A stretch of 58,426 bases of DNA from Verrucomicrobiota bacterium (GTDB taxonomy: Bacteria > Verrucomicrobiota > Verrucomicrobiia > Limisphaerales > UBA9464). The stretch spans positions 1 to 58,426 of the forward strand of contig CANIZL010000032.1 of assembly GCA_947471985.1 (NCBI GenBank), given 5' to 3'. Shown in pieces: positions 49,389 to 58,190 of this stretch. The notes beneath the pieces were generated by a model. That model was not told the origin of the DNA and did no database searches. It saw only the letters and a program-made list of their open reading frames with translations. Within the stretch, counting starts at the first letter, position 1; each line of letters begins with the position of its first letter. Both the position numbers and the translations under genes were made by a program.

Positions 49389-50219
49389 TTACGACGAAAG
49401 AGCGGACGCTGCCTTCGATGCCGGTACCGCGGGTGGTTGGTCGGCTCGTGAAGTGGCGGCGTGCGGGTCGCACTCCCGCAGGCGCACGACGGCGGACCGA
49501 AGTTCCTGCGCGAGTTGTTTGCGATCGGCGCCGGTCGCGGACATTTCAGCGAAACGCAGTCGCGCTCCCAGCTTTTGTTTGCGCAGAAGATTCAGCAGAT
49601 GCGGGACGAGGGTCATGTCCCGCCAGTAACAGACTTCATCCGCCACGCTGCCGTCGCTGACGGTGTAGGCGATGTGCCCGACCGATAAATCGTGCGGTGA
49701 CCCGACGGCGGCTTCCAGTAGGGACGATTTGAAGGGCAACACGTCGCGGCCGTCGGACGTCGTCCCTTCCGGGAAAAGTACGACGAGCATGCCGGCGTCC
49801 AGGGCGGCACGGATTTCCCCGGCCACGCGGGCCGCCGCCGAGCGCGCTTCGCGTTGCAGATAGAGGGTTCCCGCCCGGGACGCGAACCAGCCGAACACCG
49901 GCCAGCCGCGGACTTCTAGTTTGGCCACGAAGATGCAGGGGGTGGTGGCGCTGAGGACCAGGATGTCGAGGTAGCTGAGGTGATTGCAGACCAGCAGACC
50001 CCGAGTCGGCATCGGCCCGTGGACTTCGTGTTCGAGCGAAAAGACGCGCAAAACCCGGCGACAAACGTGTTGCAACCAACGGGCCCGCGGGGACGGGGCG
50101 AGTGTCCCGCCGTGTCTCACCGAAAGCGCCGCGAACCGGAGTGCAGAGTAGCCAAGTTCCCCGGCCAATCGGGCACAGCGACCCATTACGCGAAGGGGGT
50201 GTCGAGGGGCGTCGTTCAT
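49389..50219 (-). CDS. olsA: PlsC-type acyltransferase, probable lyso-ornithine lipid acyltransferase
   Basis: 276 residues, start at 50219 overlapping the olsB stop (ATGA). The catalytic HX4D box is NHLSYLD (His80, Asp85) and the acyl-acceptor motif is LFPEGTTSDG (148-156). A hydrophobic or amphipathic N-terminal part anchors it at the inner membrane. Alone it could be any lysophospholipid acyltransferase. Coupling to an OlsB-type N-acyltransferase makes the second, ester-forming step of ornithine lipid synthesis the best reading. The C-terminus is a short polar tail. Confidence 0.75.
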   Translation of the reverse strand: MNDAPRHPLRVMGRCARLAGELGYSALRFAALSVRHGGTLAPSPRARWLQHVCRRVLRVFSLEHEVHGPMPTRGLLVCNHLSYLDILVLSATTPCIFVAKLEVRGWPVFGWFASRAGTLYLQREARSAAARVAGEIRAALDAGMLVVLFPEGTTSDGRDVLPFKSSLLEAAVGSPHDLSVGHIAYTVSDGSVADEVCYWRDMTLVPHLLNLLRKQKLGARLRFAEMSATGADRKQLAQELRSAVVRLRECDPHAATSRADQPPAVPASKAASALSS

Positions 50220-50992
50220 GCCGGGGATCCGCCGAGAAAACGCGCCCGCACCAGGGACGGCAAGGCCTCCAGATCGAGCAGGGTGAGGAAATCGATGGTG
50301 CCAAATTGCCGATCCAGTGCGGGGGGTCCGCAGATTCGGGCACCCACCGTGAGGTAGGCCTGGAGTAGTTTCGGGATTCGTGGTGACTCTTCCGCCAGGC
50401 GATCGAGGGGGCATTCAAAAGCCGGCCTCGGGCGCGTGCGCCAAGGGGCTTCACTCAGGTGCTGGCGGTAAAGATGAGCATAGGCCGAGGCCCCTACCGC
50501 CGGATCGATCGAGGTGAGGGAGCTGCAACCACAGAGGTACCTTCCGCCGCGGTCCTCCGCGTAACGGGCGATGCCCTTCCAAAGAAGCCCGAGCACCACG
50601 AGATTGCGATGCTCCCGATGGACACACGCCCGGCCCAATTCGATCAACTGGTTCCGCAGGGGTTCGAACGGGCCGAAATCAAATTCCTGCTCGCTGTAGT
50701 AGCCGCGGTTTTCCGCCGCGGTTCGGCCGGTCTGCATCCGATAAGTCCCCACGACGGTATCCGTCGGTGCATGGACGACGAGCAGATGATCGCACACTGC
50801 GTCGAAGGGGTCCGCGTCCAGTCCCGTCGCGCGGGATTCCGGCAACCCTTCGTTGAGTTCCAGGTTGAAGACGGCGTAACGCAGGGCCTGAGCGGCGCGG
50901 ACGTCGTCGGCACCACGCGCGAGATGGGTGGTGTAGGTGGACTCGGATCGGACCTGCAACCGGGCGGGGGCGGGGAGGGGAGGGAGGCGCAT
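50216..50992 (-). CDS. olsB: OlsB-type N-acyltransferase (ornithine lipid synthesis)
   Basis: 258 residues of the GNAT/hemolysin-like acyltransferase family. Recognisable segments: AAQALRYAVFNLELNEGLPE, DPFDAVCDHLLVVH, VVGTYRMQTG, YYSEQEFDFGPF, ELGRACVHREHRN and GLLWKGIARY. It would transfer a 3-hydroxyacyl group from ACP to the alpha amine of ornithine, giving lyso-ornithine lipid, which OlsA then completes. Such phosphorus-free lipids often replace phospholipids under phosphate limitation. No Pho box was recognised upstream. Confidence 0.75.
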   Translation of the reverse strand: MRLPPLPAPARLQVRSESTYTTHLARGADDVRAAQALRYAVFNLELNEGLPESRATGLDADPFDAVCDHLLVVHAPTDTVVGTYRMQTGRTAAENRGYYSEQEFDFGPFEPLRNQLIELGRACVHREHRNLVVLGLLWKGIARYAEDRGGRYLCGCSSLTSIDPAVGASAYAHLYRQHLSEAPWRTRPRPAFECPLDRLAEESPRIPKLLQAYLTVGARICGPPALDRQFGTIDFLTLLDLEALPSLVRARFLGGSPA

Positions 50993-51404: not shown

Positions 51405-51713
51405 CTAATGCCGGGATTCCTCGCGCAGACGCTGGAGAATGCGTTCGCGGGCTTCCGGCGATAATCCTCGCGGGGCCGGGGTTCCCGGCGCATCCGCCAA
51501 ACCGGGCGCCGCGTGGTGCAGAAGCCGGAGATGCTTCTCATAGCGCAGGCACCAGACGCAGATCAGATGGTGAAGGCGCATGCGCCACCGCAACCGGAAG
51601 GGGAGTGGTTGCTCCAGGGAACGGGACGCCAGGCGAGACATTTCCGCACAGTTCGGCGTGTGATTCCAGACCCAGACCACCCAGCGCATTTTTAAGGATT
51701 GAAGCCACTTCAT
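51405..51713 (-). CDS. Zinc-binding anti-sigma-like protein, copy 1
   Basis: 102 residues. The ATG at 51713 follows AAAGGA by 5-6 nt and begins 1 nt after the ECF sigma stop. The ZAS motif is RLHHLICVWC (H-x3-C-x2-C), preceded by TPNCAEMSRLASRSLEQPLPF. No transmembrane segment follows, so it should be a soluble anti-sigma factor. Its core is paralogous to the next gene. Tight coupling makes the upstream ECF factor its most likely partner. Confidence 0.8.
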   Translation of the reverse strand: MKWLQSLKMRWVVWVWNHTPNCAEMSRLASRSLEQPLPFRLRWRMRLHHLICVWCLRYEKHLRLLHHAAPGLADAPGTPAPRGLSPEARERILQRLREESRH

Positions 51714-51714
51714 C

Positions 51715-52350
51715 TCAATCCTTTCTCCCAAACCAGTGGGTTTCAAGGCATCGCCGCAAGGCCATGCGGGCGCGGTGCAGCATCACCCAGAGATTGCTCT
51801 CGGTAATGTTCAGCGTTTCGCAAATCTCCCCGCTTTTCACGCCGTCGACTTCGCGCAGGGTGAAGACCGTCGCGATGGTCCGCGGCAGCTTGCTGGAGCA
51901 GTCGCGATAAACCTGCCAGAAGGCGGCACTGTCGAGATTGGCCCCGGGCCCCGTCGACCATTCCATGGGGCCCAGGTCATGGTCGGGTTGGTGAATCCAG
52001 CCGTCCTTGAACAGGCCATCCGGGATGAAACACTCCTTTTCCTCATCCTGGTAGAACTCCAGATCGGTGAACGAGGATTCGCGGCTGGCCTTGCGGTAGT
52101 AGTCGAGAATCTTGTTTTTCAGGATTCCCACCAGCCAGCTCTTTTCGGCGCTGCGCCCGGCGAACGTTCCGGCGCCCTTGAGCGCCGCCAAAAAAGTTTC
52201 CTGTACCATGTCCTCGGCCCGCGCCGGATGGCGCAGTCGGGAGAGGGCAAATTGATACAGGTGATCGCCATGCTCCGCCACCCAGCGCTCGGGGTCCGAG
52301 AGCCGCGACGGCGCCGGGTTGGTTTCTGCCACGACAGGATCTACTTCCAC
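51715..52350 (-). CDS. ECF sigma factor
   Basis: 211 residues from a GTG at 52350. Region 2 (about 28-95) has HLYQFALSRLRHPARAEDMV, QETFLAALKGAGTFAG and KSWLVGILKNKILDYYRK. Region 4 (about 140-200) has LPRTIATVFTLREVDGVKSG, EICETLNITESNLWVMLHRA and RMALRRCLE. A 45-residue acidic/aromatic linker between them (FTDLEFYQDEEKECFIPDGL) is longer than usual. It is followed directly by two ZAS anti-sigma paralogs, suggesting a thiol- or zinc-responsive regulon. No ECF-type promoter is clear upstream. Confidence 0.9.
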   Translation of the reverse strand: MEVDPVVAETNPAPSRLSDPERWVAEHGDHLYQFALSRLRHPARAEDMVQETFLAALKGAGTFAGRSAEKSWLVGILKNKILDYYRKASRESSFTDLEFYQDEEKECFIPDGLFKDGWIHQPDHDLGPMEWSTGPGANLDSAAFWQVYRDCSSKLPRTIATVFTLREVDGVKSGEICETLNITESNLWVMLHRARMALRRCLETHWFGRKD

Positions 52351-55581: not shown

Positions 55582-56658
55582 TCAGAAGACCCACGGGCCC
55601 AGCGAAATCATGAACCGCTGCCAGCGAATCCACGGGGCCGAGGTCTGGCTGTTGGTGAGGGCCCGGCGGGCCTGACGCCAGGCGCTGGAGCGTCGTGAGT
55701 AGGAACCGCCCCGCTGAAAACCGTCGATCTGGCGCAATCGCCGCTCCGCCCGGGCCAGTTCGCGGATGTAGTGGGCGTAAATGCCGCGACGGACCGTGGC
55801 GTTCAAACGCCGGTGGTGATAACGCCAGACGTGCAGTTCATAGAGCCAGCGATGGACCCGCCGGAGTCCACTGAAATGAAACAAGATCAGCGGAACGCCG
55901 GCCACCCGCACCTGCCCGTCCACTGTCGTGAGCGGATGATTGCGCAGGTTCCACGGAGCCACGCCACCGCCGGGATGCTGGAGGACGACGACTCCGCGAT
56001 ATCGTTCCGGCCATTCGGTGAGATACCCCTGATCCCCGTAGAGCGTGCCCTCCTGGCGATCATGGCACCACGTCAGGCATTGCTCCCGCCAGCGTTTCAG
56101 GCAGGCAAGTCCCTCGGCGCTCCGACGGAAAATCAGGAAACCGACATTGAACCGGGTGATGAAGCGATGGTCGCCCGGCTCCCGGTGGAGGTAACGCTGT
56201 TCGATGATCAGGATCGAGCCGTCGCCCAATTCGTCGTAAATGGGCGCCAGAGAACTGAAAAAGAGCTGGTCCGAATCTAGGTAGGTGATCATCGGGATTT
56301 GGGAATCCCGTTGGAGGACGTGCAGCAAGAGTGCGGGGCCGCAGGTCCAGAAATACTCCACGGGGAGGCGGGTGGATTTGACGGAAAGAAGCTCGGGATC
56401 CGCCGACTCCAATTCGGGCAGGGTGATCAACCGCACCTCCGGCAGGCCTAACCGGTTCAGAACTTGTGCTGTCCGGGTATCGAGGCACAGCACCCAGAGG
56501 ACAAACGACGGGCAGTGCCGGACGAGCGACGCATGGAGTGCCAGCCCGCGCGCCAGAAAGTTGGCGTCAAAGTACGTGACGAAATGCCGGGCCCCGGGCG
56601 GAGTGGCCAGGTGGCCGGAGGGCGGGCCGGTTTCAACGCGGCCCGGGTCAGAATTCAG
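55582..56658 (-). CDS. GT-A-like glycosyltransferase with non-canonical start
   Basis: The only ATG/GTG/TTG start is a GTG at 56493, but it lies inside the conserved fold. The frame upstream reads HFVTYFDANFLARGLALHAS and LVRHCPSFVLWVLCLD, clearly the first strand and helix of the domain. The frame is open back to 56674, and a CTG at 56658 overlaps the stop of the terpene cyclase gene (CTGA), so I extend it there (358 residues). Later motifs are YLDSDQLFFSS (metal-binding DxD-like), RFNVGFLIFRRS and GDQGYLTEWPE, with a basic C-terminus. It probably transfers a sugar onto a product of the adjacent UbiA/terpene cyclase genes; donor and acceptor are unknown. An N-terminal frameshift in the assembly is the alternative to a CTG start. 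Confidence 0.7.
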   Translation of the reverse strand: MNSDPGRVETGPPSGHLATPPGARHFVTYFDANFLARGLALHASLVRHCPSFVLWVLCLDTRTAQVLNRLGLPEVRLITLPELESADPELLSVKSTRLPVEYFWTCGPALLLHVLQRDSQIPMITYLDSDQLFFSSLAPIYDELGDGSILIIEQRYLHREPGDHRFITRFNVGFLIFRRSAEGLACLKRWREQCLTWCHDRQEGTLYGDQGYLTEWPERYRGVVVLQHPGGGVAPWNLRNHPLTTVDGQVRVAGVPLILFHFSGLRRVHRWLYELHVWRYHHRRLNATVRRGIYAHYIRELARAERRLRQIDGFQRGGSYSRRSSAWRQARRALTNSQTSAPWIRWQRFMISLGPWVF

Positions 56659-57305
56659 ATGCGTGTCCAGGGATTAATGCCTTCCATCCGGGCCTGGCGG
56701 AGGTAAAGCCAGATGTACCCGAGGTCGCAGACAGTAAACGCCACGCAGATCAGGGCCAGAAAGGACGACTTGGGTGTCTGCAGATACTGCATGGGGATTA
56801 CGGCCAGTGAGCCGATAAAGCGGGTCAGCGCGATGTAGAGGGACTGCCCCTCCACGCTGCCCCGCTTTGCGAGCAACGAGATCATTGTAATGCTGATCAG
56901 TATTTGCGCACCCCAGCCAGAGTAGTTGCCATCCCAGTCCTTTAGTTCGCGGGTCAGGGTGAGGACCCCGAGGAAAGCGGTGATAAGCGACAAACCCAGC
57001 ACCGGTAGAAACCAGGACTTCGGGAGCGCTTTGGGGAATTCAGCGCGGCCGTATCGGAAATATTGCCAGAGGATGATCACATCGATCCCGCCCCAGACCA
57101 TGTTGACGTAGTTCATGGGTGCGGGTTGCGGATGCACGAAACCAAAGATGAATTCCCAACTGATGTTCAGACACAAGGGCGCCAACGGCATGGCGTGCGC
57201 CCGGTCCAAGGCGGCCCGCCGGATAAGCAGGAGATAACAGGCGGCCCAAAAAAGTCCGGAGACACATCCGGAGGTCATTGAGATGTTGTTTTCCAGTGCA
57301 GTCAT
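56655..57305 (-). CDS. Pyr4/PaxB-type transmembrane terpene cyclase
   Basis: 216 residues, seven predicted membrane helices, AAGG about 5 nt before the ATG. The helix-2 motif LCLNISWEFIFGFV carries the Glu, and helix 7 (FTVCDLGYIWLYL) the Asp, that correspond to the two acidic residues needed for protonation in the fungal Pyr4 family. NYVNMVWGGIDVIILWQYF (helix 3) is also family-like. These small integral-membrane enzymes cyclise prenylated or epoxidised substrates. It follows a UbiA-like prenyltransferase by 18 bp and overlaps the glycosyltransferase, so the three probably work in sequence at the membrane. The substrate is unknown; a non-enzymatic membrane protein is the alternative. Confidence 0.65.
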   Translation of the reverse strand: MTALENNISMTSGCVSGLFWAACYLLLIRRAALDRAHAMPLAPLCLNISWEFIFGFVHPQPAPMNYVNMVWGGIDVIILWQYFRYGRAEFPKALPKSWFLPVLGLSLITAFLGVLTLTRELKDWDGNYSGWGAQILISITMISLLAKRGSVEGQSLYIALTRFIGSLAVIPMQYLQTPKSSFLALICVAFTVCDLGYIWLYLRQARMEGINPWTRI

Positions 57306-57323
57306 GGTGCCTTGGCGAATGAA

Positions 57324-58190
57324 TTAGAGGGCTGACAGGGCCGCCGCCACCAGCACGCTGGGCAGCCAGAGCACAAATTCAAAGTCCGCCCAGACTTCTC
57401 CGATGTGCCCCAGGTCGATTTGCCCGGACTTTCCGCCCTGCAGGAGATAGGTGGCGTAAACTCGGGTGGAGTGCAGCGCCGCCGCTGGGGTTGGCAGCCA
57501 GTTCAACGCGATGGAAAGAACCAACCAAAGGGCCGTCGCCAGGCTCACGCCCTGCAATAGCCGGAACGTTGGGCCAGTACCCAAAGCCAGTGGGAGAGTG
57601 GGCACGCCGTCCACCTGATCGCGCTCCAGATCCTTGAAATCGCAAAAGACTGTATTCACAAAAATGGCAAGGAACATGAACCCGGCGAACCCGGCATGCT
57701 CGCCCCAGCTGCCCGTGTGATGAAAAACCAGCGCAAAGGATATGAGCCAAGCCCAGAAGGCCGCCGTGTAGACCGCCTTCAGTCCGGGAATCTCCTTAAG
57801 CCGGATCGCCGACCACTTTCCCACCGTGCGACGGGGAATGACCGGCACGCAGTAGATGACCACGGCGAGCGGAAAGGAAAGCAGCATCAGCATCGCACTG
57901 AGACCGGATTGCCAGCCGGCAATTCCCAACGCGAGCAGATAGGCCGCCGCTCCGAAGCCGGCCGCGCGGTGACGTGACGCGGCTAGCAGCTTGCTGCGGT
58001 CGGAGGCCAAGCCATCCTCGCATGTGTCCACTTCCGATAGATGGTCGATTAGATAGCTGGAGTACGCGCAAAGGGCTGCCGCGAACGCTGCCCAGAGCGT
58101 CAATCGTCCTGTGACGAGCAACGAGACGGTCGCTACCGGACTTGCCGCCACCAGCGGGAGCAGCAGCCCGAGCCGCGCAGTCTTGAGCAC
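57324..58190 (-). CDS. UbiA-superfamily prenyltransferase-like protein
   Basis: 288 residues from a GTG at 58190, about eight to nine membrane helices. The second Asp-rich motif is canonical: FCDFKDLERDQVDGVPTLP. The first is unusual: YLIDHLSEVDTCED followed by ASRHR replaces the standard NDxxDxxxD, as in a divergent UbiA branch. UbiA enzymes attach a prenyl chain to an aromatic or other acceptor using Mg-diphosphate. Activity is likely but the degenerate first motif leaves doubt. It is first of the trio with the terpene cyclase and glycosyltransferase. No epoxidase or aromatic-acid gene is in view. Confidence 0.8.
   Translation of the reverse strand: MLKTARLGLLLPLVAASPVATVSLLVTGRLTLWAAFAAALCAYSSYLIDHLSEVDTCEDGLASDRSKLLAASRHRAAGFGAAAYLLALGIAGWQSGLSAMLMLLSFPLAVVIYCVPVIPRRTVGKWSAIRLKEIPGLKAVYTAAFWAWLISFALVFHHTGSWGEHAGFAGFMFLAIFVNTVFCDFKDLERDQVDGVPTLPLALGTGPTFRLLQGVSLATALWLVLSIALNWLPTPAAALHSTRVYATYLLQGGKSGQIDLGHIGEVWADFEFVLWLPSVLVAAALSAL

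Follow-up and report, generated by a model that had tools for sequence, protein, structure and literature searches.

A putative two-gene module for prenylation and cyclisation in a Verrucomicrobiota genome

At one end of a contig of a Verrucomicrobiota bacterium (GenBank assembly GCA_947471985.1, contig CANIZL010000032.1; G000:C32 in our numbering), a gene for a UbiA-family membrane prenyltransferase is followed by a gene for a Pyr4-like membrane protein, a putative terpene cyclase, and by a gene for a glycosyltransferase. The window analysed is the entire contig of 58,426 bp. An initial annotation had placed the three genes in one operon leading to a glycosylated terpenoid or modified prenyl lipid. 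On balance, the evidence leans towards a smaller unit, a two-gene module that would first prenylate and then cyclise, and not towards a trio. The three open reading frames (ORFs) all lie on the minus strand and are read in the order UbiA gene, Pyr4-like gene, glycosyltransferase gene:

57324..58190, minus strand: UbiA-family membrane prenyltransferase gene (PF01040); GTG start as listed; 66% identical orthologue at locus L019
57306..57323, minus strand: gap of 18 bp between the UbiA stop and the cyclase start, read from the sequence
56655..57305, minus strand: gene of the Pyr4-like seven-helix membrane protein, 216 amino acids (aa), putative terpene cyclase (PF25129, AlphaFold model, 68% identical L019 orthologue)
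57234..57236, minus strand: codon of Tyr24, whose column is at least 90% conserved; 27 residues before Glu51, as is Y33 before E60 in DmtA1
57153..57155, minus strand: codon of Glu51, a family acid presumed to correspond to DmtA1 E60 (family alignment and published DmtA1 mutants)
56724..56726, minus strand: codon of Asp194, the other family acid, presumed to correspond to DmtA1 D214 (family alignment and DmtA1 mutants)
55582..56658, minus strand: GT8-like glycosyltransferase gene, its start probably a CTG that overlaps the stop codon of the cyclase gene; likely outside the conserved unit

Judged from its sequence, the 216-residue protein can be assigned with confidence to the Pyr4-type family, as initially proposed: it matches PF25129 (Pyr4-like transmembrane terpene cyclases) with an E-value of 5.2e-31 and 108.5 bits against a cut-off of 27 (Pfam). 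The AlphaFold2 model, built with 38 aligned sequences, has seven long helices and a mean predicted local distance difference test (pLDDT) score of 96.2. Both acids that had been read as catalytic stand in family columns of an alignment of 62 rows from 61 ORFs, in which the L105 protein gives two rows and L048 and L094 are one gene: the Glu51 column holds Glu in 60 rows and a gap in two, and the Asp194 column holds Asp in 56 rows, His or Asn in five and a gap in one. From family conservation and spacing, and not from a direct alignment with DmtA1, we take Glu51, Asp194 and Tyr24 as the counterparts of E60, D214 and Y33 of this seven-helix Streptomyces drimentine cyclase. According to the accessible part of the DmtA1 report (PMC6173783), E60 and Y33 are essential, D214A is nearly inactive, D214N is partly active and D94 is important. 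Sequence searches against solved structures gave no relative of the cyclase in the PDB, and NCBIfam gave nothing decisive for either the UbiA or the Pyr4-like protein.

The product of the first gene matches PF01040 (E-value 6.6e-13, 49 bits against a cut-off of 34.2; Pfam). Proteins of the UbiA superfamily typically carry two Asp-rich stretches, one of the NDxxDxxxD type and one reading DxxDxxxD, and the second stretch of the window protein (D184FKD187LERD191) fits the latter. The UbiA tree falls into separate well-supported groups, with the window protein in a group of its own and weak deeper branches; by sequence, this UbiA protein is deeply divergent. It need not serve quinone or haem synthesis, because the genome contains four further PF01040 genes. 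Its start is uncertain, since the frame is open to 58292, and the orthologue described below is 33 residues longer at the N-terminus than the GTG start gives. As a separate observation, another UbiA-family gene of the same genome (L138, G000:C80, 4994-10149) shares its strand with genes that by eye encode a major facilitator superfamily transporter, a cytochrome P450 and a sulfotransferase-like protein, and this neighbourhood is possibly a second small-molecule cluster.

A scan of named genomes yielded 36 loci with Pyr4-like genes and one further UbiA–cyclase pair, at L019 in the metagenome-assembled genome (MAG) of Verrucomicrobiaceae bacterium UBA7681. Here, a Pyr4-like protein 68% identical to that of the window is encoded directly after a 66% identical UbiA protein, in the same gene order. 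In UBA7681, the listed ORFs share 11 bp, but a start at the aligned Met (7101) would instead leave 19 bp between them; in the window, the 18-bp UbiA–cyclase junction initially described is exact. Because the pair recurs in UBA7681, the adjacency is more than chance. Comparison of the two genomes gave dN values (non-synonymous substitutions per site) of 0.22 and 0.25 and dS values (synonymous substitutions per site) of 1.7 and 1.9, the latter near saturation, and both genes are under purifying selection. The UBA7681 pair is flanked by a histidine kinase gene converging from downstream and by a globin gene upstream; no glycosyltransferase gene adjoins it, and no epoxidase gene was seen by eye in the 16.7 kb around it.

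UbiA neighbours were sought with nine UbiA queries on ORFs of at least 150 aa. UbiA genes were found near the Pyr4-like genes of the window, of L019 and of 8 of 20 actinobacterial loci, the latter from a survey of 250 genomes that found PF25129 in 19; none was found at the 35 other named-genome loci, nor at three further loci discussed below (L011, L013 and L014). The UbiA genes at the actinobacterial loci stem from more than one UbiA lineage. Thus, of the operon originally proposed, the functional link between UbiA gene and cyclase gene is supported by the second genome and by the eight actinobacterial loci, whereas the third member is absent from the UBA7681 pair.

The initial annotation knew of no described pathway with this layout, yet a UbiA plus Pyr4-type core has been published both as zigC/zigF (PMC13307353) and as mosC/mosB (PMC11109268), in each case as given in the accessible part of the paper. 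In the zig cluster of Micromonospora zingiberis, ZigF is reported there to cyclise in cell-free extract, and deletion of the UbiA-like ZigC to abolish the products (PMC13307353). Like the window, this bacterium combines a UbiA-like enzyme with a Pyr4-like cyclase, but the zig cluster is large, with P450s, a prenyl synthase and acceptor-making enzymes, and the likeness is one of description. For the fungus Neoarthrinium moseri, the accessible text states that three genes, mosB, mosC and mosD, are enough to yield a product that traces back to 4-hydroxybenzoate, which the UbiA-like MosC is proposed to farnesylate before cyclisation by the Pyr4-family MosB (PMC11109268). The order of enzyme types resembles the window pair, whereas the mos cluster has flavin adenine dinucleotide-dependent oxygenases, none of which was seen beside the window pair. 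DmtA1 shares the seven helices and the Glu/Asp/Tyr counterparts with the window protein but, as far as its report is accessible, works with a phytoene-synthase-like prenyltransferase instead of a UbiA-type one and has the extra acid D94 (PMC6173783). A UbiA enzyme followed by a Pyr4-type cyclase is accordingly an already known arrangement; what is new here is a minimal pair in another phylum, with a divergent UbiA. Bacterial Pyr4-like cyclases were charted only recently, and the accessible part of the survey by Kakumu and Helfrich counts 1,107 candidates, 264 of them with terpenoid neighbours, of which 69% are from Actinomycetota (PMC13307353).

What the two enzymes would do, on which acceptor, with what chain length and from a shared transcript, we infer. 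The UbiA enzyme would join a prenyl diphosphate to an acceptor from ordinary metabolism, perhaps an aromatic acid (4-hydroxybenzoate, for example) or a precursor of quinones. The Pyr4-like membrane protein would then protonate the chain via Glu51, with Asp194 and Tyr24 assisting, and the rings would close. Protonation of a double bond, as the accessible account describes for DmtA1, which acts on a C=C bond without an epoxide (PMC6173783), would be more likely than protonation of an epoxide, because no epoxidase gene was found among the five neighbours scanned or in the 16.7 kb of UBA7681.

Several observations weigh against the two-gene module. Of the genes expected in a meroterpenoid cluster, the prenyltransferase and cyclase genes are present, but no prenyl synthase or epoxidase gene was seen beside the pair: none of these, and no acceptor gene, is among the five neighbours, and the contig ends 236 bp upstream of the UbiA gene. 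The five neighbours scanned, at 49-55.5 kb on the readable side, also contain no oxygenase or aromatic-acid genes. Some 7 kb downstream of the UBA7681 pair is a gene that by eye looks oxygenase-like (fatty-acid/sterol hydroxylase type). The window UbiA has an unusual first Asp-rich stretch (YLID49HLSE53VD55, with Ser for Asn upstream), and no position in the window protein could be matched to the extra DmtA1 acid D94. The pair is known in two genomes only: the window UbiA was found in one of 195 genomes of the order, and the UbiA profile in one of 387 genomes of the phylum, in both cases the window's own; PF25129 occurs in 4 of the 387, the own genome included. After UBA7681, the closest relatives are mostly lone genes for which no UbiA gene was found in the vicinity; as the same Glu and Asp are conserved in them, these two residues alone do not identify a cyclase. 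Not all lone genes are free of terpenoid neighbours: at L034, an Anaerolineales MAG, a polyprenyl-synthase query hits an ORF (7e-7) some 1.4 kb away from the lone Pyr4-like gene. A search of Nostocales for a tolypodiol-type cyclase returned 1 of 148, which is a lone gene already in the sample.

The tree of Pyr4-like proteins has 58 rows and leaves out L105 (short, with two overlapping partial matches), L052 and L053 (fragments) and L048 (the same gene as L094). It joins the window and UBA7681 proteins as a pair with 100/100 support, among unresolved relatives from Bacteroidota, Chloroflexota, cyanobacteria, Methanoperedens and others. Seven of the eight UbiA-linked actinobacterial proteins group together, apart from the window's, in a group that also holds proteins encoded beside RoxA-like cytochromes. 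A tree in which the window pair was constrained to join those seven was not rejected (approximately unbiased test, p 0.097), a further point on the unfavourable side; with this value, the tree is compatible with one origin of the UbiA linkage or with several.

The alternative that survives best, unlikely as we hold it to be, is that the Pyr4-like protein is no cyclase and is a transporter or receptor of the SWEET/KDEL-receptor fold, carrying, for instance, the product or substrate of the UbiA enzyme. Compared by VIA-align, the model matched the KDEL receptor best (Z 14.2, 181 residues, 3.7 A), with cystinosin at Z 13.4 and SWEET at 11.7; the first 16 rows are all KDEL receptor, cystinosin or SWEET structures (Z 14.2 to 8.9) of the 3+1+3 fold, matched over the whole length, and the next, unrelated row 17 drops to Z 6.5, to be read knowing that a best Z of about 14 is typical even of all-helical models lacking a clear match and that the query is a predicted model. 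Foldseek alone gave nothing under 0.001 (best 2.8e-3). Most relatives have no UbiA gene found alongside, and some adjoin genes for hybrid histidine kinases, TonB receptors or dihaem cytochromes, which also speaks for this reading. A shared fold, however, shows no function, proven cyclases have been published in the same named family, with the Glu, Asp and Tyr common to them, and the UbiA partnership recurs.

The likeness in fold may also be one of descent. SWEET, cystinosin and the KDEL receptor, joined in the accessible part of PMC7176098 as PQ-loop members of the TOG superfamily, share with the window model the 3+1+3 layout, the whole-length structural match and what may be a weak internal repeat, but they are transporters and receptors, not enzymes, and have no significant sequence match to the window protein. 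Aligned against each other, the two halves of the Pyr4-like profile gave P values of 0.004 and 0.005, in register and with the near-invariant Asp75 paired with Asp194; comparison with six bacterial PQ-loop proteins gave P values of 0.009 (29 columns) and 0.027 (67 columns), and probability scores stayed below 10% in both comparisons. This PQ-loop set comprises six of the seven loci found (L143 was left out, no ORF being found; L145 is below the family cut-off). As controls, reversed halves gave P values of 0.23-0.33 and seven UbiA segments 0.14-0.61. An actinobacterial locus, L105 (G811:C22, 6647-7303), encodes a short protein with two matches to the family profile. Its third helix can be aligned with helix 3 as well as with helix 7, so that helices 1-2 lead straight into the Asp194-type helix; the protein may be a half-size member, with the repeat collapsed to one half, or equally a decayed gene. 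With somewhat less than an even chance, the Pyr4-type cyclases would be a branch of the SWEET/PQ-loop/KDEL-receptor superfamily, a doubled small transporter or receptor fold turned enzyme; the lone relatives would retain an older role, non-cyclase or housekeeping, and the window pair would represent one lineage recruited by a UbiA gene. This origin suggests that the catalytic Asp194 would be the twin-half counterpart of Asp75, and it gains weight if L105 is read as a half-size member. A literature search joining terpene cyclases and PQ-loop proteins returned nothing on the subject, most subscription papers lying outside its scope, so that the link may be in print; the word "terpene" is absent from the accessible text of the TOG superfamily paper (PMC7176098).

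The operon of the initial annotation corresponds to a further reading, improbable in our estimate, in which all three genes would belong to a single pathway, with the cyclised prenyl product receiving a sugar from the glycosyltransferase; as a special case of the two-gene module, it shares part of that module's probability. The same strand, the tight junctions and a possible CTGA overlap speak for it, and glycosylated drimane sesquiterpenes of Streptomyces exist (the olindenones, for which the accessible part of the report names no cyclase; PMC12453296). The overlap, however, is real only if the rare start codon CTG at 56658, in the CTGA that carries the cyclase stop, is used. The glycosyltransferase frame is open from 56673 and has no ATG, GTG or TTG before GTG at 56493, a start that would cost the protein a conserved N-terminal strand; on this sequence basis, CTG 56658 is the likeliest start, irregular as it is.

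Over its full length, the glycosyltransferase has no match in Pfam or NCBIfam. GT8 enzymes, LgtC (1.0e-9, Foldseek) and glycogenin among them, are the best matches of a model of low confidence (pLDDT 68.4); D128 and D130, which would form a DxD motif, are invariant in all five sequences compared, and one of two paralogues in the same genome (52 and 45% identity) matches PF01501 (GT8) at 0.029, below the cut-off. Homologues occur in 12 of 58 genomes searched, the own genome included, and none of the 11 others has a match to the window cyclase. Several lie beside aminotransferase, epimerase and methyltransferase genes, by eye in what look like surface-sugar clusters. Because it is absent beside the UBA7681 pair, has paralogues in its own genome and has homologues in cyclase-free genomes, we leave the glycosyltransferase out of the unit; by position it is probably a bystander, and a pathway ending in glycosylation, as initially envisaged, loses its footing. 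The search for the trio in other genomes found the pair alone in UBA7681 and no trio (36 named-genome loci, 195 genomes of the order, 387 of the phylum), an absence that is weak evidence because the named-genome scan detects only proteins that carry either of two short peptide patterns, and on one side of the match 11 of its 36 loci extend for less than 2.5 kb.

Quite improbable is a third alternative, that the UbiA protein is a UbiA-type class I terpene synthase and that a free terpene is cyclised first by one membrane protein and then by the other: UbiA-fold terpene synthases do exist (PMC9835599, abstract) and no acceptor-making gene was seen beside the pair, but the PF01040 match is generic and does not separate the two activities. 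That the genes are unrelated neighbours on one strand is very improbable, since order and near-contact are kept in UBA7681 at 66-68% identity, even though the pair is known from two genomes only and the glycosyltransferase does look like a chance neighbour.

Other members of the family suggest that the fold has been put to a second use, marked by RoxA-linked paralogues without the second acid. The other Pyr4-like gene of the window's own genome (L011, G000:C105, 9980-15986) has His for the second acid; its neighbours are a TonB receptor gene and two genes for RoxA-like dihaem cytochromes. Cytochromes homologous to these two are encoded beside tandem Pyr4-like genes with Asn or His at L049 (761-5436, a Gemmatimonadetes MAG) and L054 (8108-12977, an Acidobacteriota MAG), so that the second acid is His or Asn in all five RoxA-linked genes, from three phyla. 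At L013 (G001:C289, 9042-11795) and L014 (G015:C19, 783-3539), a single frame encodes a Pyr4-like domain fused to a TonB-dependent receptor. The receptor half is TOL_0244-like (below the model cut-off) and homologous to the receptor at L011, and the neighbouring gene is MPAB/Lcp-like (PF09995). As a compact system with its own UbiA lineage, the minimal UbiA plus Pyr4-like pair lends itself to asking what the lone Pyr4-like genes do, and a transporter-like fold, if true, would give the Pyr4-like family an origin.

Among further relatives, two MAGs of the same phylum have a hybrid histidine kinase gene, with HisKA, receiver and Hpt domains, that immediately precedes the Pyr4-like gene (L015, G183:C8, 5840-8453; L017, G377:C427, 5654-8267). 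At L016 (G406:C222, 4456-6624, a Lentisphaeria MAG), the Pyr4-like gene adjoins a divergent xylose-isomerase-like TIM-barrel gene (PF01261 just below the cut-off), which we take to resemble EboE of the ebo operon.

PADLOC returned no match. Where no Pfam, NCBIfam or HMMER match is given, neighbouring genes at the loci described were identified by eye from their sequences. The next gene after the glycosyltransferase encodes a solute-binding protein (PF00496) on the opposite strand and is convergent with it. A GNAT-type gene (PF13444) lies at 50216-50992 on the minus strand, with a weak FeeM match below the cut-off. At 51715-52350, also on the minus strand, a sigma-factor gene (PF04542/PF08281) is followed by a small ORF (51405-51746) that by eye contains cysteines.

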